Origin: Ruegeria atlantica
GTDB taxonomy: Bacteria; Pseudomonadota; Alphaproteobacteria; Rhodobacterales; Rhodobacteraceae
Direction of reading: 5' to 3'
NCBI RefSeq assembly: GCF_013032455.1
Contig: NZ_WQCF01000002.1
Span: forward strand, 434,001 to 498,000
Length of the DNA: 64,000 nt
Positions within the stretch are counted from its first letter, which is position 1. Every line of letters begins with the position of its first letter. The notes beneath the pieces were generated by a model that was not told the origin of the DNA, searched no databases, and saw only the letters and a program-made list of their open reading frames with translations. Of the stretch, positions 30,386 to 42,308 are shown one piece after another. Position numbers and translations under genes: made by a program.

Positions 30386-30739
30386 ATGCAATATGTCTGG
30401 GCCACCTTGGGGTTGATCTGTGTTGGGCTTGCAGCGGTAGGTATTGCTCTACCTCTTCTGCCGACTGTACCATTCTTGTTGTTGGCCGCTTTCTTCTTTG
30501 CCCGCTCTTCTTCGCGTCTTCATCACTGGCTGATGACTCATCAGACTTTTGGGCCATTGATCGTTGATTGGCAAACCTCTGGTGTCATTCGACCGGGCGC
30601 AAAAAAGGCGGCCACCATTTCAGTCACCGCCGTGTTTGGATTATCCATTCTGCTAGCCCTGCCTTCCCACGTTCTGATTATTCAGGCTGTGGTTTTAGGC
30701 TGTGTCATGATCTTTATCTGGACACGGCCTAACGGCTGA
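30386..30739 (+). CDS. DUF454 (YbaN) family membrane protein
   Basis: 117 residues from ATG 30386; GTG 30383, sharing a base with the hemW stop, is the alternative. DUF454 signature near the start: VWATLGLICVGLAAVGIALPLLPTVPFLLLAAFFFARSSSRLHHWLM, followed by FGPLIVDWQTSGVIRPGAKKAA. Three membrane segments (residues ~5-45 as a hairpin, ~75-95, ~97-113). Function unknown. It ends by overlapping parB for 11 bp in convergent orientation. Confidence 0.82.
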   Translation: MQYVWATLGLICVGLAAVGIALPLLPTVPFLLLAAFFFARSSSRLHHWLMTHQTFGPLIVDWQTSGVIRPGAKKAATISVTAVFGLSILLALPSHVLIIQAVVLGCVMIFIWTRPNG

Positions 30740-31622
30740 GCTTGGCACAAAGATCGTCTAACTGATCCAGATTTTCATAGGTCAAAACCACCTGCCCAGT
30801 TTCAGTACCAGCCTTGTGGTTGATCGCAACTTTCATAGCCAGAATCGCCGAGAGATCTTTCTCTAATGCACGCGTATCCGCGTCCTTGCCAGCATTCAGA
30901 TTTCTGGACCGCGGCGCGGCCTTGGCAGGATCTGCTTGTTGTTTTTTCACCAACGCTTCGGTCGCACGCACCGAAAGGCCATCCCGAACAACAATTTTGG
31001 CCAATTCTGATGGGTTTTCCGCTGTTATCAAAGCCCGTGCATGACCCGCTGACAACTTGCCCTCAATGACCAATGTCTGAACGTCCAACGGCAAGGAAAG
31101 CAATCGCAATAGATTCGCAATGTGGCTGCGGCTTTTCCCAAGAGCTTCAGCCAGCTTTTCCTGTGTGTGCCCGAAACGGTCCATAAGCTGCTTGTATCCA
31201 GCAGCCTCTTCAACGGCATTCAGATCTGCACGCTGAATATTCTCGATAATCGCAACTTCGAGCACTTCGGTATCGTCGAATTCACGCACGATAACCGGGA
31301 TATCATGCAGCTGCGCCATCTGAGCAGCACGCCAACGACGTTCACCGGCAACAATTTCATACTCGCCGCCACTTATTTCGCGTACGATCAGCGGCTGGAT
31401 TATACCTTTTTCCTTAACAGACGCGGCGAGCTCATCAAGATGTTCAGCCGAAAATGTCCGGCGCGGCTGATTTGGGTTGGCCCGCAACTTTTCAATAGGA
31501 ACCGTCATGTCCGGGCGGCGCGGCTCTGATGAGACCAGACCTTCTGCTTCTTGTGTTACATCAGCCATCAAGGCGGAAAGGCCTCGGCCTAGACCTCTGT
31601 GTTTAGTTTTTTTGGCGGTCAC
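30729..31622 (-). CDS. parB: chromosome partitioning protein ParB (CTPase, parS-binding)
   Basis: 297 residues. The N-terminal CTPase/arm domain holds the ParB boxes: PNQPRRTFSAEHLDELAASVKEKGIIQPLIVRE and the GERRWRAAQMA motif near residue 95. The helix-turn-helix follows (HTQEKLAEALGKSRSHIANLLRLLSLP, residues ~152-178), then HARALI and the dimerisation C-terminus. It loads at parS as a sliding clamp and, with ParA, segregates the new origin. Two perfect parS copies lie 1.4 and 3.3 kb upstream in the same operon. It starts 20 bp after the parA stop. Base composition is lower in GC than the average of the window. Confidence 0.96.
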   Translation of the reverse strand: MTAKKTKHRGLGRGLSALMADVTQEAEGLVSSEPRRPDMTVPIEKLRANPNQPRRTFSAEHLDELAASVKEKGIIQPLIVREISGGEYEIVAGERRWRAAQMAQLHDIPVIVREFDDTEVLEVAIIENIQRADLNAVEEAAGYKQLMDRFGHTQEKLAEALGKSRSHIANLLRLLSLPLDVQTLVIEGKLSAGHARALITAENPSELAKIVVRDGLSVRATEALVKKQQADPAKAAPRSRNLNAGKDADTRALEKDLSAILAMKVAINHKAGTETGQVVLTYENLDQLDDLCAKLSR

Positions 31623-31642: not shown

Positions 31643-32446
31643 TCAGGCGGCGACATTTTTGTTCTTGTGAATGACTTCGCGAGCCAGATGCCGATACGCC
31701 ATCGCACCCAACGATCCCGAATCATATTGCAGAACTGGCAAAGCGTAAGACGGCGCTTCGCTGACCCGCACATTCCTGGGTATTTTGGTTTTAAATACCA
31801 TCTCACCCAAATTGTCACGTGCATCCTTTTCGACCTGACGGGACAAGTTATTGCGGTTGTCATACATGGTAAGCACAACACCTTCGATTCTGAGGTCAGG
31901 ATTTGCGGTTTGACGAACTTCTCTGATCGTCAGCATCAATTGCGAAAGACCCTCCAAGGCAAAGAACTCACTTTGCAGCGGAACCAATACCGAATGCGAT
32001 GCCACCATCGCATTCACAGTCAGAAGATTGAGAGACGGAGGGCAATCAATCAGGATAAAATCCAACTTGAATTTATCAATAGCCGTCTGACGCAGTGCGT
32101 CATGAAGAAGATAGCTGCGTTTTTCATTGGAAATCAGTTCAATATCAGCCGAACTCAAATCAACGGTCGCAGGCACAACAAAAAGCCCTTCGATATCCGT
32201 TTCCTGCAGTACTGCCTCAAGCGGTGCTTCATCCAGGATCAGATCATAAGTCGTCCAATCCCTATCCTCGACCCCTAATCCTGTCGACGCATTGCCCTGA
32301 GGGTCCAAATCAACGACCAACACCCGGCACCCTGCTTCGGCAAGTCCAGCGGCAAGGTTAATCGCTGTCGTAGTTTTTCCCACCCCACCCTTTTGATTGG
32401 CAACCGCAATTATCCGGGGCCCTGAAGGGCGAGACAGATCAACCAC
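31643..32446 (-). CDS. parA: chromosome partitioning ATPase ParA
   Basis: 267 residues. The deviant Walker A NQKGGVGKTTTAINLAAGLA begins near residue 17, Walker A' is VVDLDPQGNASTGLG near residue 44, and Walker B is FILIDCPPSLNLLTVNAM near residue 132. This is the chromosomal Soj/ParA class without an N-terminal DNA-binding extension. It works with ParB and parS in origin segregation. Its start overlaps the end of rsmG by 8 nt, and parB follows 20 bp later. Confidence 0.97.
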   Translation of the reverse strand: MVDLSRPSGPRIIAVANQKGGVGKTTTAINLAAGLAEAGCRVLVVDLDPQGNASTGLGVEDRDWTTYDLILDEAPLEAVLQETDIEGLFVVPATVDLSSADIELISNEKRSYLLHDALRQTAIDKFKLDFILIDCPPSLNLLTVNAMVASHSVLVPLQSEFFALEGLSQLMLTIREVRQTANPDLRIEGVVLTMYDNRNNLSRQVEKDARDNLGEMVFKTKIPRNVRVSEAPSYALPVLQYDSGSLGAMAYRHLAREVIHKNKNVAA

Positions 32447-33053
32447 GCGATACTCCTTTGATCCTTAGGATAACAGCTTGGGGTTCAGTTAAACTTGTAA
32501 TCGGCTCGCAATCGAATTTCCATTCCTCGCGTGCGTCATCCAGCTCTTTTTTCCAGTTTGCGCCTTTAGGCAACAACGCCGTGCCGTGTTCTCCTAAATG
32601 TCTGTCGCAAAAGGACAATAACATCTTCAAATCAGCTAGCGCGCGCGCTGACAGGATATCTGCGCTCAAGGGGTCTACGTCTTCGATTCGCTTTGAAACG
32701 ACAGTACATTTTGCCCCACACTCCCGCGCAACGGTGCGTAGAAACGCCGATTTTCTCTGATCGCTTTCAACAAATGTAAAATGTGTATCTGGCGCTTCAT
32801 CAGCGGCCATAATCGCGCAAACCATCCCTGGAAAGCCTCCTCCACTTCCTAAGTCTACCCAGGTTTGGAAAGCTTCTGCACACCGAAAGACTTGGACCGA
32901 GTCCAATATATGCCGGGTCCAGATGTCATTAAGACTGTTCCTAGAGACCAAGTTTATCTTGGGATTCCATCGCTGCACCAGATTTACGTAGACCTCAAGC
33001 CGATCGAGTGTTTCACGTGAAACATTCAACCCGTTCAGCACTTCGGAGCTCAT
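32439..33053 (-). CDS. rsmG: 16S rRNA (guanine-N7) methyltransferase RsmG (GidB)
   Basis: 204 residues. The SAM motif [14 protein letters not shown] lies near residue 67, with [21 protein letters not shown] before it. It methylates G527 of 16S rRNA, the site linked to streptomycin sensitivity. The first codons ([11 protein letters not shown], residues 10-20) are encoded over a parS palindrome, so the DNA there carries two messages. It starts inside the mnmG stop codon (ATGA), and its end overlaps parA. Confidence 0.96.
33009..33024. promoter_or_regulatory. parS site inside the start of rsmG
   Basis: TGTTTCACGTGAAACA, a perfect 16-bp palindrome identical to the classical ParB-binding consensus. 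It lies at codons 10-15 of rsmG and encodes the residues VSRET. Location within 6 kb of the putative oriC is as expected for a chromosomal parS. Confidence 0.95.
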
Positions 33054-34927
33054 ACTTTGCGCACCCGCTGTTCACGCCGCAACTTGGCCAGCAACAAAGT
33101 CAGTGCAGCGGGTGTTACACCTTCTACGCGCCCTGCCTGTGCAATATTTACCGGTCTTGCCGTCGATAGCTTCTGTTTCACCTCAGATGACAGACCTTCC
33201 AACGTTGAATAGTCGAAATCTCGCGGAATCTCATAAGATTCATCGCGTTTCATAGCTTCAACATCCTTCTTTTGCCGCGCAATATAGTTCGCATATAGCG
33301 CGTCCCGTTCGACCTGAAGGCGGATATCTGCTTCAATACCCTCTAGCTCCGGAACAAGTGGCAAAAGGTTTTCGAATGACACATCTGGAAATGCCAAAAT
33401 CGCCATTCCGTCCCTGCGATTCCCATCTTGGTTGACATTAATGCCTGCTGATCGCATTTCCCTCGGTGTAAATGTGCGATCTGTCAATTTAGACTTAGCT
33501 GTCTCCAGCTTGTCCATTTTCCCTTCGAAGTGAATTTTTCGCGTATCACCAACACACCCAATATCAATACCCATTGGCGTTAACCTTTGATCTGCGTTAT
33601 CTGCTCGCAGCGATAGACGGAATTCTGCGCGAGAGGTAAACATTCGGTAAGGCTCCGCCACTCCGCGAGTAGTAAGATCGTCAATCATCACACCGATATA
33701 ACTGTCCGCACGCGTGAAATGGAGCGGGTCACGTCCCAAAACGGCTAGAGCAGCGTTCAACCCCGCAACAAGTCCCTGCGCTGCTGCTTCCTCATATCCT
33801 GTTGTTCCGTTGATTTGACCAGCAAGATATAGACCCGGCGCCTCTGGCAATGACAAAGATGACGTCAATACGCGTGGATCGACGTAATCGTATTCTATGG
33901 CATAGCCAGGTTGCAATATGACTGCATTCTCCAATCCCTTGATTGATCGAACATAATCTTGCTGTACATCTTGCGGCAAAGACGTTGAAATCCCGTTTGG
34001 ATAGATCGTGTTGTCGTTAACTCCTTCGGGTTCCAAGAAAATTTGGTGCGATTCCTTGTCGGAAAACCGGACGATTTTATCCTCGATGGATGGGCAATAG
34101 CGAGGACCTACACCATCAATATGCCCGCCATACATTGCTGATTGTGACAGGTTTTTTTGGATGATCTCGTGCGTCCGCGCATTTGTATGCGTAATTCCGC
34201 AAGAAATTTGCGGCGCAACAACTGAGGTCGAGAGAAAAGAAAACAGCGTGGGATCTTCATCGCCGTCCTGTCGTTCAAGATCTGTCCAATCTATTGTGCG
34301 ACCATCCAGCCGGGGTGGTGTACCGGTTTTCAATCGACCTAGCGGAAGATCAAAACTGTCCAGACGTTCAGCCAACTTCACCGACGGCCGGTCCCCCATC
34401 CGGCCACCGGGTTTGGATACGTCTCCAATGTGAATGACGCCCCGCAAAAATGTACCAGATGTTAGGATGACAGCTCCGGCATGAATTTCCGAACCGTCCG
34501 CCAGCTTGATTCCAACAACCTTCGAGCCATCCATCAGAAAGTCGACAACTTCTCCTACAACAATGGATAGATGCTCTTGCTGCTTCGTCTCTTTCTGCAT
34601 GGCCGCACGATACAGCGCTCGGTCCGCTTGCGTTCTTGGCCCCTGCACTGCCGGGCCTTTTCGGCGGTTCAAAAGGCGAAACTGAATCCCGGCCTGATCA
34701 GCCACACGCCCCATGACGCCATCCAGCGCATCGATTTCACGCACCAAATGACCTTTACCAAGGCCACCAATAGCAGGGTTACAAGACATGACGCCGATAT
34801 CCTGCCCTGACAAGGTTACCAAAGCAGTTTCGACACCCATCCGGGCAGCCGCATGAGCTGCTTCGGTTCCAGCATGGCCAGCCCCAATGACCACCACATC
34901 AAACTTCGAATGTTTCACGTGAAACAC
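33050..34927 (-). CDS. mnmG: tRNA 5-carboxymethylaminomethyluridine synthesis enzyme MnmG (GidA)
   Basis: 625 residues. The FAD site is [21 protein letters not shown] near residue 9; the MnmG signatures [15 protein letters not shown] (near residue 276) and [20 protein letters not shown] (near residue 369) are intact. The C-terminal helical domain ends [18 protein letters not shown]. With MnmE it modifies wobble U34 of several tRNAs. The first six residues, MFHVKH, are encoded by a parS palindrome. mnmE ends 3 bp before it and rsmG begins in its stop codon. Confidence 0.97.
34911..34926. promoter_or_regulatory. parS site at the start of mnmG
   Basis: A second perfect TGTTTCACGTGAAACA, beginning one base inside the ATG of mnmG (start at 34927) and encoding most of MFHVKH. 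ParB loading here would directly cover the translation start region of mnmG. The two parS copies are 1.9 kb apart. Confidence 0.95.
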
Positions 34928-37641: not shown

Positions 37642-38091
37642 TCAGAACTTCAGAACGACCGCCAGAACGATGGCAACCATCAGAATGGTCGGAACCTCGT
37701 TCATCATGCGATATTGCCGCCCAGTGAGCTTATTTTCGCCCTCTAAGAAGTCCTTGCGCCGTGCCATCAGCCAATGATGGAACCAGGTCATCCCGAGCAC
37801 AGCGGCGCCCTTGACCCAGGGCCAGGACCAGTCCCATCCTACGATGCCTGGCGTAAACACCATGATCAGCCCGCAAACCCATGCCACGTACATCGCTGGT
37901 CGCATGATCACACGCAGCAACTTGTCTTCCATTTCAAAGAAGATGGTTTCGGCCCCGTCTACCGCCTGTGCCTTTTCTACGTGATAGACGAACAGCCTGG
38001 GCAAATAGAACAGCCCTGCCATCCACGAGATCACGGCCATGATGTGTAAAGACTTCACCCACGGGTAAATCGTGAAAAGCAGATCAGTCAT
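37642..38091 (-). CDS. hemJ: protoporphyrinogen IX oxidase HemJ
   Basis: 149 residues with four membrane helices (about 10-30, 55-75, 83-100, 128-147). Family signature near the start: WVKSLHIMAVISWMAGLFYLPRLFVYHVEKA, including the conserved His of helix 1; later EDKLLRVIMRPAMYVAWVCGLIMV and GMTWFHHWLMARRKDF. It oxidises protoporphyrinogen IX to protoporphyrin in heme and bacteriochlorophyll synthesis, in place of HemY or HemG. It faces away from the putative oriC gap; hemE and hemH are not in the window. Confidence 0.92.
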   Translation of the reverse strand: MTDLLFTIYPWVKSLHIMAVISWMAGLFYLPRLFVYHVEKAQAVDGAETIFFEMEDKLLRVIMRPAMYVAWVCGLIMVFTPGIVGWDWSWPWVKGAAVLGMTWFHHWLMARRKDFLEGENKLTGRQYRMMNEVPTILMVAIVLAVVLKF

Positions 38092-38189
38092 TCTGGCTCC
38101 GGGCGTTGTTCGGAACTCTCCCTAATAAAAAAATAAGAAAAGAAAAAGGAAGATGGTTTTGTAGGGCGAACAAAATCCGTGGATTACTT

Positions 38190-38198
38190 TTTTACACA
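38190..38198 (+). promoter_or_regulatory. candidate DnaA box
   Basis: TTTTACACA, a full match to the relaxed bacterial DnaA-box consensus TTWTNCACA, next to the A/T-rich left part of the putative oriC. Confidence 0.5.
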
Positions 38199-38306
38199 TG
38201 CTTTTTCCCCAGGTGGAAAGAGTTCCGTGATTTTCAGGTGATTCTGTGAATTTCATTATTTTTTGTTTTATAACAATGTGTTGTGCGGTAATAACTAGAA
38301 TATCTA

Positions 38307-38315
38307 TGAGGATAA
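38307..38315 (-). promoter_or_regulatory. candidate DnaA box
   Basis: TTATCCTCA on the minus strand, one mismatch from TTATCCACA, in the middle of the putative oriC. Confidence 0.55.
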
Positions 38316-38487
38316 CTCTTTGGGTAAACCCGGAATGCTGGGTTATCCATGTCGTTAGACTTATCCTTGTCCCGGATGGACAGGGTTTGAGCGACTCAGG
38401 GAAGTTTTGGGCGAAAATCCCGGGGTTGCGTGTCAATCTGAAAACCATACAAACCGTCCAGTAACGCTCAACGATTTGCACACGGGG

Positions 38488-38496
38488 TTGTCCACA
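38488..38496 (+). promoter_or_regulatory. candidate DnaA box overlapping the maf start
   Basis: TTGTCCACA, one mismatch from TTATCCACA. Its last base is the A of the maf start codon, so DnaA bound here would cover the maf translation start region. Confidence 0.5.
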
Positions 38497-39095
38497 TGTC
38501 TGTCCCCATCATCCTGGCCTCGGGGTCATTTATTCGCGCACAGCTGCTGGAAAACGCAGGCGTGCCATTTTCCGTTCAGGTGGCGCGCGTGGATGAGGAT
38601 ACCATGAAACGCGCACTGTTGGCCGGAGAGGCATCTCCCCGTGATATTGCTGATGCACTGGCCGAGATGAAAGCTCGCAAAGTTAGCGATAAAAATCCTG
38701 GGGCGATGGTTCTGGGCTGCGATCAGGTGTTGGACTTTGACGGGCAACTGTTGTCGAAACCTGAAACACCCGAGGATGCGCTGGGGCAGCTCAAGGCGAT
38801 GCGGGGCAAGCGGCATATGCTGTTGTCTGCTGCGGTGATCTATCAGGATGGAGAGCCGATCTGGCGTCACGTCGGGCAAGTGCGCCTGCGGATGCGGATG
38901 AGCTCGGATGCGTATCTGCGCGATTATATCAACCGCAACTGGGACAGCATCCGCCATGCGGTGGGTGCTTATAAGCTGGAAGAGGAAGGCGTACGCCTGT
39001 TCGCCACCATTGACGGAGACTATTTTAATGTCTTGGGTATGCCCCTGTTGGAACTGCTCAATTATCTGGCTGTCAAAGGGGTGATCGACCAATGA
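38496..39095 (+). CDS. maf: Maf family nucleotide pyrophosphatase
   Basis: 199 residues. Start IILASGSFIRAQLLENAGVPF (the family's S/A-S-x-x-R motif, here ASGSFIRAQ), then VLGCDQVLDFDGQLLSKPETPEDALGQLKAMRGKRHMLLSAAVI, with the catalytic Asp and Lys region. Maf proteins hydrolyse non-canonical or modified NTPs (m5UTP or m7GTP types); which one cannot be told. First gene to the right of the putative oriC and first of the run maf-aroE-coaE-dnaQ, each overlapping the next by 4-8 nt. Confidence 0.92.
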   Translation: MSVPIILASGSFIRAQLLENAGVPFSVQVARVDEDTMKRALLAGEASPRDIADALAEMKARKVSDKNPGAMVLGCDQVLDFDGQLLSKPETPEDALGQLKAMRGKRHMLLSAAVIYQDGEPIWRHVGQVRLRMRMSSDAYLRDYINRNWDSIRHAVGAYKLEEEGVRLFATIDGDYFNVLGMPLLELLNYLAVKGVIDQ

Positions 39096-41258: not shown

Positions 41259-41756
41259 TTAAGCTTGCGCTTTCTGAGCTTCGGCCTGACGGCGCATCAA
41301 CTCGTTGCGATACAGTGCAACAAAGTCGATATTGTCCAGATTGACCGGCGGATAACCACCGTCGCGGGTGACGTCACTGACGATGCGGCGCAGGAACGGG
41401 AACAGCATCCGCGGGCATTCAATCAGCAGGAACGGATGCAGTTGATCTTCGGCAACGCCTTCCACGTGGAACAGACCGCAATAGTCGATCTCGCACAGAA
41501 ACAGGACGTCTTCCATGCCTTTGGCTTTGGACGTCAGATTCAGTTTTATCGAGATTTCGTACTGATGTTCTACCTTACGCTTTTTCGCATCCAGGTTTAC
41601 CTGAACTGCAATCTCGGGCTGTACGTCCCCGGATACGCCCTTTTGCGCCATTACATTTTCAAAGGACAAATCGCGAATGAATTGTCCCAGAACGCGCATC
41701 TGAACTTGAGGGGCGGTTTGGGCCGCAGTGTTTTCTGCAGCGTTTTCTTCGGCCAT
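41259..41756 (-). CDS. secB: protein-export chaperone SecB
   Basis: 165 residues from ATG 41756 (AEENAAENTAAQTAPQ), preceded by GGAG; the open frame extends to 41795 without family sequence. SecB signature: MRVLGQFIRDLSFENVMA, then EIAVQVNLDAKKRKVEHQYEISIKLNLTSKA, FLCEIDYCGLFHVEGV, and the strongly conserved LLIECPRMLFPFLRRIVSDVTRDGGYPPVNLDNIDFVALY. It keeps precursor proteins unfolded for SecA. It lies 54 bp downstream of fxsA on the same strand. Confidence 0.96.
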   Translation of the reverse strand: MAEENAAENTAAQTAPQVQMRVLGQFIRDLSFENVMAQKGVSGDVQPEIAVQVNLDAKKRKVEHQYEISIKLNLTSKAKGMEDVLFLCEIDYCGLFHVEGVAEDQLHPFLLIECPRMLFPFLRRIVSDVTRDGGYPPVNLDNIDFVALYRNELMRRQAEAQKAQA

Positions 41757-41810
41757 GGAACTACTCCAAAAATAAAATCCGCCATTGCTTAGCAAGTTGG
41801 ACGCGGTACC

Positions 41811-42308
41811 TCAATGCTGGTGCGGTCCTTCGACCCATTTCGACGGTTTCGCCGGGTTTTGGCGTGGCTTTACCTCGGTGAATTCGCCATCGATCACGTC
41901 ATCGCCAAACGGTGCCGATCCTGATTGAAACTGCGATCCAGTGCCCATTTGGAATTGAGTGATCTTCACTCTGGATTTCAGATAGCGAAAGACCGAGATT
42001 CGAACGCCGGGAATAAGGAGTGCAAATCCAACCACGTCGGTGAAAAATCCGGGCGTCAGCAGCAACATGCCAGACATCAGGATCATTGCGCCATGAGCCA
42101 GCGGCTCGGTCGGGTCATCCAGTTCGGCAAAAGATCGCTGCAGATCGGCCAGCGCCATGCGACCTTGTGTCCTGACCAATGCGGTGCCCAGAACGGCCGT
42201 CAGCACCACAATTGCCAGCGTGGGCCACAACCCGATCAGGCCACCCACCTGAATGAACAGGGCAATCTCGATGATCGGGACCAATAAAAATGCCAAGAAC
42301 AGGTACAT
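41811..42308 (-). CDS. fxsA: FxsA family membrane protein
   Basis: 165 residues. The family core is at the N-terminus: LFLAFLLVPIIEIALFIQVGGLIGLWPTLAIVVLTAVLGTALVRTQGRMALADLQRSFAEL. Then GAMILMSGMLLLTPGFFTDVVGFALLIPGVR. Four membrane segments followed by a hydrophilic tail. E. coli FxsA relieves F-plasmid exclusion of phage T7 when overproduced; its normal role is unknown. Transcribed toward secB; divergent from the Tim44-like gene (107-bp gap). Confidence 0.88.
   Translation of the reverse strand: MYLFLAFLLVPIIEIALFIQVGGLIGLWPTLAIVVLTAVLGTALVRTQGRMALADLQRSFAELDDPTEPLAHGAMILMSGMLLLTPGFFTDVVGFALLIPGVRISVFRYLKSRVKITQFQMGTGSQFQSGSAPFGDDVIDGEFTEVKPRQNPAKPSKWVEGPHQH

Follow-up and report, generated by a model that had tools for sequence, protein, structure and literature searches.

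In Escherichia coli, the unwinding element of the chromosome replication origin (oriC) adjoins a DnaA box in the R1 orientation, and in Caulobacter crescentus, the origin (Cori) sits at hemE/RP001. Opening of the origin is described in detail for Bacillus subtilis, whose basal unwinding system (BUS) consists of a DnaA box, a spacer of 13 that starts with G/C, an array of triplets (DnaA-trios), and an A/T tract, in that order (PMC8287927, PMC10721633). In a published survey of BUS elements, which requires A as the middle base of the triplet, 13 bp was the commonest spacer (PMC8287927). Arg202 and Glu228 of the Bacillus DnaA contact the G of the trio, and Asn187 contacts the middle A; T as the middle base impairs opening, and none of these three residues is universal (PMC10721633). 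Thermotoga maritima (the eTrio) and Helicobacter pylori are also described as having triplets in tandem next to the DnaA boxes, on a single strand of the DUE; in both cases, these are TAG repeats with a conserved middle A (PMC10316083, PMC8235120). Within the Rhodobacteraceae, Ori-Finder was used to place oriC in 101 strains, in an intergenic region near parAB, at the skew minimum, and with weak DnaA boxes (PMC6699656). What that work offers on oriC, in the portions that describe these predictions, is places and not anatomy: they hold no module, triplets, or box map (PMC6699656).

Here we analyze a 64-kb stretch of DNA from Ruegeria atlantica (the window). A first-pass annotation of the window had put forward the 404-bp gap between hemJ and maf as a putative oriC. 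We found that this gap lies at the skew minimum of the window, contains its least stable DNA and conserved boxes, is single-copy, has conserved synteny in 79 of 79 relatives, and has the only parS sites of the genome nearby. Given its place, its skew and instability, its conserved boxes and triplet module, and the parS sites, all of which we know from sequence, this gap is very probably the chromosome replication origin.

The gap resembles each of the described systems in part. It shares with the BUS of B. subtilis the order of elements, the strand and polarity of the triplets, and the G of each triplet, and Arg202/Glu228 correspond to Lys/Glu; but T or G is common where Bacillus has the middle A, and Asn187 is replaced by Tyr (PMC10721633, PMC8287927). 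It shares tandem triplets on one strand beside boxes with T. maritima and H. pylori, but not the conserved middle A (PMC10316083, PMC8235120). As in the Ori-Finder predictions, it is intergenic, near parAB, at a skew minimum, and has weak DnaA boxes (PMC6699656). Cori is similar in its type of neighborhood (hemE, PPSR, and maf are near related modules), its weak DnaA boxes, and parS within 8 kb, but it has five CtrA sites (PMC4468827). Finally, the gap is similar to E. coli oriC in having an unwinding element by an R1-oriented box and differs in that the window has no IHF consensus (PMC10316083).

The gap between hemJ and maf

The features of the locus are listed in Table 1. The first-pass annotation had given the limits of the gap exactly and had described it as AT-rich, which it is (57% AT versus 43% in the window).

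Table 1. Features in and around the putative oriC (positions in the window)
Feature	Position	Strand	Remarks
parB	30729..31622	-	PF02195 2e-38, PF17762 6e-34
parA	31643..32446	-	PF13614 3e-60
parS 2	33009..33024		exact; within 5' end of gidB/rsmG
parS 1	34911..34926		exact TGTTTCACGTGAAACA; within 5' end of gidA/mnmG
hemJ (UPF0093), left flank	37642..38091	-	PF03653 8e-57; start at 38091
Putative oriC (hemJ/maf intergenic gap)	38092..38495		404 bp
A/T tract I, proposed DNA unwinding element	38120..38151		sequence conserved
Triplet array AGG AAG ATG GTT TTG TAG	38147..38164	+	proposed single-strand DnaA contact (DnaA-trio position)
Spacer, 13 bp	38165..38177		starts with G/C cluster; 13 bp in 26/36, 14 bp in 8/36
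DnaA box TAATCCACG	38178..38186	-	E. coli R1 orientation; box-like 9-mer in 94% (weighted) of 80 sequences; two mismatches
DnaA-box-like TTTTACACA	38190..38198	+	exact TTWTNCACA; absent from family-wide conserved positions
DnaA-box-like TTTTCCCCA	38203..38211	+	89% (weighted) of 80 sequences; two mismatches
A/T tract II	38231..38300		AT 73% here, 70% in family; conservation 0.51, sequence varies
DnaA box TTATCCTCA	38307..38315	-	83% (weighted) of 80 sequences; one mismatch to TTATCCACA
DnaA-box-like 9-mer	from 38319	-	two mismatches to TTATCCACA
Weak DnaA-box-like TTATCCATG	38343..38351	+	42% (weighted) of 80 sequences; two mismatches
DnaA box TTGTCCACA	38488..38496	+	100% of 80 sequences; one mismatch; ends on the first base of the maf start codon (ATG)
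maf, right flank	38496..39095	+	PF02545 1e-42; start at 38496

To the left of the gap are rho, trmE, gidA, gidB, parA, and parB, and to the right are aroE, coaE, and dnaQ. The flanking genes had been said to all point outward, which does not hold for secB and fxsA (41259-42308): they are right of the gap, on the minus strand, and face back. Two parS sites had been reported near the gap, and both are there as exact matches. They are 3.2-5.1 kb from the gap, and they are the only two in the whole 4.24-Mb genome, which consists of 40 contigs (the contig with the gap is a draft). Because both sites lie in the first codons of gidA and gidB, the starts of these proteins encode the partition site. 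parS recurs at these two places in nearly all of the named relatives, with one exact copy in L101; L089 and L091 have a third parS, about 5.79 kb from maf.

As plain DNA, the 404-bp gap has one match in each of 54 same-genus genomes (including its own) and has matches in only 9 of 149 genomes from the family. For a comparison of gene order, we kept 80 named relatives out of 391, and dropping L106 (contig end) left 79 usable ones. Each of the 79 has hemJ pointing away, an exact parS, and a gap of 371-432 bp. An origin is expected to be single-copy and conserved in its place, and this is what we see in the 54 same-genus genomes and the 79 relatives. In relatives that are named Ruegeria, Maf is up to 95% identical.

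When 30-bp stretches of the 64 kb are ranked by stability, the bottom three are all in the gap, as expected for an origin with an unstable, A/T-rich unwinding element. The least stable of all starts at 38248, in A/T tract II; the second starts at 38122, in A/T tract I; and the other starts at 38289. A/T tract I is 83% AT at 38122-38151 (82% in the family), with a mean conservation of 0.78. A/T tract II keeps its composition without keeping its sequence, as expected for an element that needs to melt. Unwinding is likely at the left module, on the side of A/T tract I.

DnaA boxes

The first-pass annotation had counted at least five box-like 9-mers. We find one TTWTNCACA (38190), two 9-mers with one mismatch (38307 and 38488), and four with two mismatches (38178, 38203, 38319, and 38343). 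We take the box at 38178-38186 to have the R1 orientation, judging from the layout of E. coli oriC. No perfect TTATCCACA is present in the gap. Single box matches prove nothing, because their counts in the 64-kb window are within chance expectation: we found 1 exact TTWTNCACA versus 3.02 expected and 12 matches to TTATCCACA with at most one mismatch versus 8.62 expected. Within the gap, there are 6 matches to TTATCCACA with at most two mismatches versus 1.54 expected (1.4% of shuffles reach this number; p = 0.014) and 5 matches to TTWTNCACA with at most one mismatch versus 1.25 expected (p = 0.010), while only 1 match to TTATCCACA with at most one mismatch is wholly inside the gap (p = 0.11).

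We also scored clusters of boxes in a 404-bp frame, with 4, 2, or 1 points for 9-mers with 0, 1, or 2 mismatches. The gap scores 7, and the 404 bp from 38093 score 9, which is the maximum for the window. Elsewhere on the contig, 18 stretches of 10 kb scored no higher than 5. The 4.4-kb dnaA locus (L002) scored no higher than 4. In all 79 usable relatives, the highest-scoring 404-bp frame at the locus overlaps the gap, and the orthologous gap outscores 240 kb of sampled sequence in three of four relatives (the exception is G039, with 6 versus 7). Across the family, there are 5.24 box-like 9-mers per gap, as compared to 1.33 in shuffles (n = 80). The evidence from the box cluster in a single gap is modest, with p of about 0.01, and it is conservation in 79 of 79 loci that carries the case for an oriC.

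The rightmost box overlaps the start codon of maf by one base in all 80 family sequences. If DnaA binds at this predicted box (38488-38496), it might also control maf.

A conserved module in the probable origin

From 36 aligned sequences (38119-38214 and its relatives), we built a sequence-only model with 97 positions, which we will call module R1. Its layout is an A/T tract, G-phased triplets, a 13-bp spacer, and a DnaA box. At a threshold of E = 0.01, module R1 has one match each in 109 of the 149 genomes from the family and no match in the other 40; the 149 may include genomes that contributed to the training. The genome of our R. atlantica has one match (8e-21), and its next-best hit has E = 0.63. 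Among 31 family loci that we inspected, the module has maf and rho as flanking genes in all 31 and hemJ in 26; in the five loci without hemJ, rho itself is the left neighbor. Because the module is kept where hemJ is missing, it goes with the origin and not with hemJ. (In L240, L248, L250, L251, and L252, which belong to the family, rho and the origin have no hemJ between them.)

Across the class, 28 of 190 genomes have a match to module R1 at E = 0.01, and three of these are members of the family. Of the 17 loci that the module alone detected outside the family, 13 have maf, hemE, or PPSR as a neighbor, which bears out the earlier argument that the order of genes around the gap is one seen next to oriC in other alphaproteobacteria. 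The matches in L255, L258, and L265, outside the family, look like chance. L268, from an alphaproteobacterium with a 0.8-Mb genome, has fifteen perfect copies of TTATGCACA, in either orientation, at 1545-1776, next to a fabI-like gene and a module-like match. Of these copies, eleven share one orientation and recur every 11 bp up to the end of the contig. This looks like an origin with an array of DnaA boxes in another neighborhood. In one relative (L118:9622-9716), there is a shortened module, with TGTAG almost directly abutting a GTGGATAA box.

GC skew

The minimum of cumulative G-C in the window is at 38062, or 30 bp from the gap. To sample the skew more widely, we turned to four genomes of the same genus that each have one large contig, took 20 stretches of 12 kb from each, and treated the contig as a circle. 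In these four relatives, the mean skew is +0.023 to +0.032 on the maf side and -0.023 to -0.035 on the hemJ side. Pooling the 80 points, 34/40 are positive on the maf side and 34/40 are negative on the hemJ side (Mann-Whitney p = 6e-11). A free two-point fit recovered the locus as the switch in G039 and G035, and it chose another point in G034 and G010. In G034, the free fit was at 0.68-0.72 and the locus is at 0.80, and the error grows from 0.0122 to 0.0144 when the switch is forced to the locus; in G010, the free fit was at 0.68-0.72 and the locus is at 0.94, and the error grows from 0.0206 to 0.0229. The GC skew favors the locus by the minimum in the window and by the change of sign in all four sampled relatives; the free fit agrees in two of the four. 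The skew of the contig itself is noisy: about the first 180 kb (9420-192447 of the contig) are positive or zero where negative values would be expected, and values right of the gap are mixed. The left end of this contig may have been rearranged or may belong to a different replichore.

Triplets beside the R1-oriented box

Among 36 aligned relatives, four Gs of the triplet array are nearly invariant and share one 3-nt phase: 38152 (36/36), 38155 (35/36), 38161 (36/36), and 38164 (36/36). The phase is broken at 38158, which is T in 34/36 (triplet 38156-38158). From the box outwards, the middle bases are A (35/36), T (30/36), the interruption, T (34/36), and T (31/36; the window has A at this last one). 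The first triplet, TAG, lies within 0-16 bp of the box, as in a BUS (13 bp in the window and 13-14 bp in 34/36). However, the published BUS rule of at least three consecutive middle-A triplets near a box does not describe these gaps: the best run is 3.44, as compared to 4.12 in shuffles (n = 80), and the array in the window has no run of three. By the middle-A rule, the array does not qualify as a Bacillus-type BUS.

To escape the family that the model was trained on, we used loci that were found via PPSR genes, independently of module R1. PPSR was present in 68 genomes. We took loci from 30 of them, and two of these lacked a match for hemE, which left 28 hemE/PPSR gaps. From the other 38 genomes, we used 34 upstream regions and left out G218 (already included) as well as G259, G252, and G311 (partial or weak). 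We chose a set of triplets (TAG, TTG, TGG, ATG, and AAG, which excludes a middle C) after viewing some of the loci. Forward runs of these triplets exceed shuffles in the 28 gaps (Fisher 9e-9), but this test is not independent, because the set was picked after viewing loci. The 34 fresh upstream regions are independent, and forward runs exceed shuffles in these as well (Fisher 4.5e-4 for forward and 1.0 for reverse). On the reverse strand, runs were not above shuffles in either the gaps or the upstream regions. In a control with 30 dnaA-upstream regions, forward exceeded reverse in 12 and reverse exceeded forward in 2, although neither was above shuffles; therefore, counts of forward versus reverse are not a clean control, and the shuffles are.

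We also computed the autocorrelation of G in patches that were selected by composition alone (an A/T tract, then G over C), pooled across 62 other alphaproteobacterial loci. Pairs of Gs are overrepresented at lags 3, 6, and 9 (z = 4.8, 3.5, and 3.8) and underrepresented at lags 1, 2, 4, 5, and 8. For lags 3, 6, and 9, the fresh loci alone give z = 3.2, 2.2, and 2.2, as compared to 0.0, -0.8, and 1.5 for the dnaA-upstream control and -1.7, -0.4, and -2.6 for the reverse strand. This pooled analysis was designed after a weaker test of phase, with short anchored segments from the 34 of 62 loci that were usable, gave no significant result (p = 0.48 and 0.89); the two ask different things. With no preset set of triplets, the middle bases of NNG in the anchored segments are T (44), A (40), G (30), and C (4).

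The DnaA residue that would read the middle base

In the DnaA from this genome (L002), the residues that align to Arg202, Glu228, and Asn187 of Bacillus are Lys217, Glu243, and Tyr202; the Asn187 of a Bacillus-type BUS is thus lacking here. For a broader view, we considered the 30 best-scoring DnaA loci per search, which are not a random draw; L363 could not be parsed, which left 29 from the alphaproteobacteria. Among these 29 best-scoring DnaAs, the G-reader positions are Lys in 29/29 and Glu in 29/29, and the Asn187 position is Tyr in 27 and Phe in 2. Among 26 DnaAs from the search in Pseudomonadota outside the class, this position is Ala (10), Gln (8), Thr (4), Ser (2), or Asn (2), and it is aromatic in none of the 26. 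As judged from these alignments, this residue varies across many lineages, and an aromatic one is peculiar to the alphaproteobacteria within our sample.

We propose, as a possibility that we hold to be somewhat less likely than not, that the Alphaproteobacteria have an altered DnaA-trio code. NNG triplets with T, G, or A in the middle (TTG, TGG, ATG, TAG), on the strand (3'-GAT-5') and at the distance known from Bacillus, would be read by a DnaA with an aromatic residue (Tyr/Phe) and with the G-readers (Lys, Glu) kept, and the Ruegeria gap would be one instance. We infer a consistent picture, in which the G and its readers are kept while the middle base is relaxed and its reader is changed, but a correlation within one class amounts to one event. 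A weak search, limited to open-licence literature, did not turn up an alphaproteobacterial middle-T trio in print.

Other elements in the gap

An ORF of 119 amino acids (38122-38481, minus strand) was rejected as a gene: it has no match in Pfam, and in only 8 of 79 relatives' gaps do at least 110 codons follow one another without a stop. The gap has no match in Rfam. The CtrA motif TTAA-N7-TTAA is absent from the window and from 75 of 80 gaps (it is found in 5), so we also rejected a Caulobacter-type, CtrA-controlled origin. The IHF consensus is absent from the window; it is found in 10 of 80 gaps, in one orientation, with a mean of 0.12 as compared to 0.01 in shuffles. There are 2 GANTC sites in the window (the mean for the family is 2.08 versus 1.57). 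The only repeats in the gap are short two-copy families.

How the probable origin might open, and alternative explanations

In the mechanism that we propose, DnaA would bind the R1-oriented box and grow leftwards across the 13-bp spacer. It would then grip the upper strand at the G-phased triplets and open A/T tract I. The triplets would act like the DnaA-trios of the Bacillus BUS, except that the middle base would be less constrained. Additional DnaA would sit on the boxes at 38203, 38307, and 38488 and may help to open A/T tract II. Forks would leave in both directions, and ParB-parS, 3-5 kb away, would segregate the new origins.

Alternatively, the true oriC might be by dnaA or elsewhere, and the gap might be a region near the par genes that is conserved for regulation only. 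The window comes from a draft contig, and free skew fits in two of four relatives favored another point. However, the skew flips at the locus, on average, in all four of these relatives; the dnaA locus has no cluster of boxes (maximum 4); parS is on this contig only; and the module is single-copy. We consider an origin elsewhere to be very improbable. We give almost no credence to the idea that the conservation stems from a missed small gene or RNA or from the promoters or leader sequences of hemJ and maf. These genes are divergent and both need promoters, and there is the 119-amino-acid ORF, but this ORF is not kept and has no Pfam match, and the gap has no Rfam match. Also, the module is kept in the 5 of 31 family loci where hemJ is missing, and in other families it lies between hemE and PPSR or between hemE and maf. 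The gap may be used for promoters alongside its use as an origin.

An alternative to our proposed mechanism, which leaves the gap as the origin, is that opening occurs as in E. coli, with the single strand recruited back to box-bound DnaA via TTGT/TTATT motifs (PMC10316083), and that the phase of the triplets is incidental. This seems unlikely to us, but it deserves weight: there is a TTGT within the array (38159-38162), the T-rich triplets TTG TTG contain TTGT, and some of the gaps in the family (10/80) have the IHF consensus. Against this, the IHF consensus is absent from the window, the invariant letters are Gs that are 3 nt apart and not TTGT units, and many of the arrays in the class are TAG/TGG/ATG.

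Implications

As an oriC, the gap between hemJ and maf is expected and ordinary, and an altered trio code would be the new part. With the model of module R1, an origin can be located in a draft genome and no skew plot is needed. If the altered code is true, then such origins would escape the published searches that require A in the middle. How homologs of DnaA recognize different single-strand motifs has been named as an open question (PMC10316083, PMC10721633), and one residue (Tyr202 here, Asn187 in Bacillus) together with one array would make this question testable. If the reading of the triplets as DnaA-trios is true, it explains how the base code could change in a whole class whose origins retain the shared unwinding machinery.
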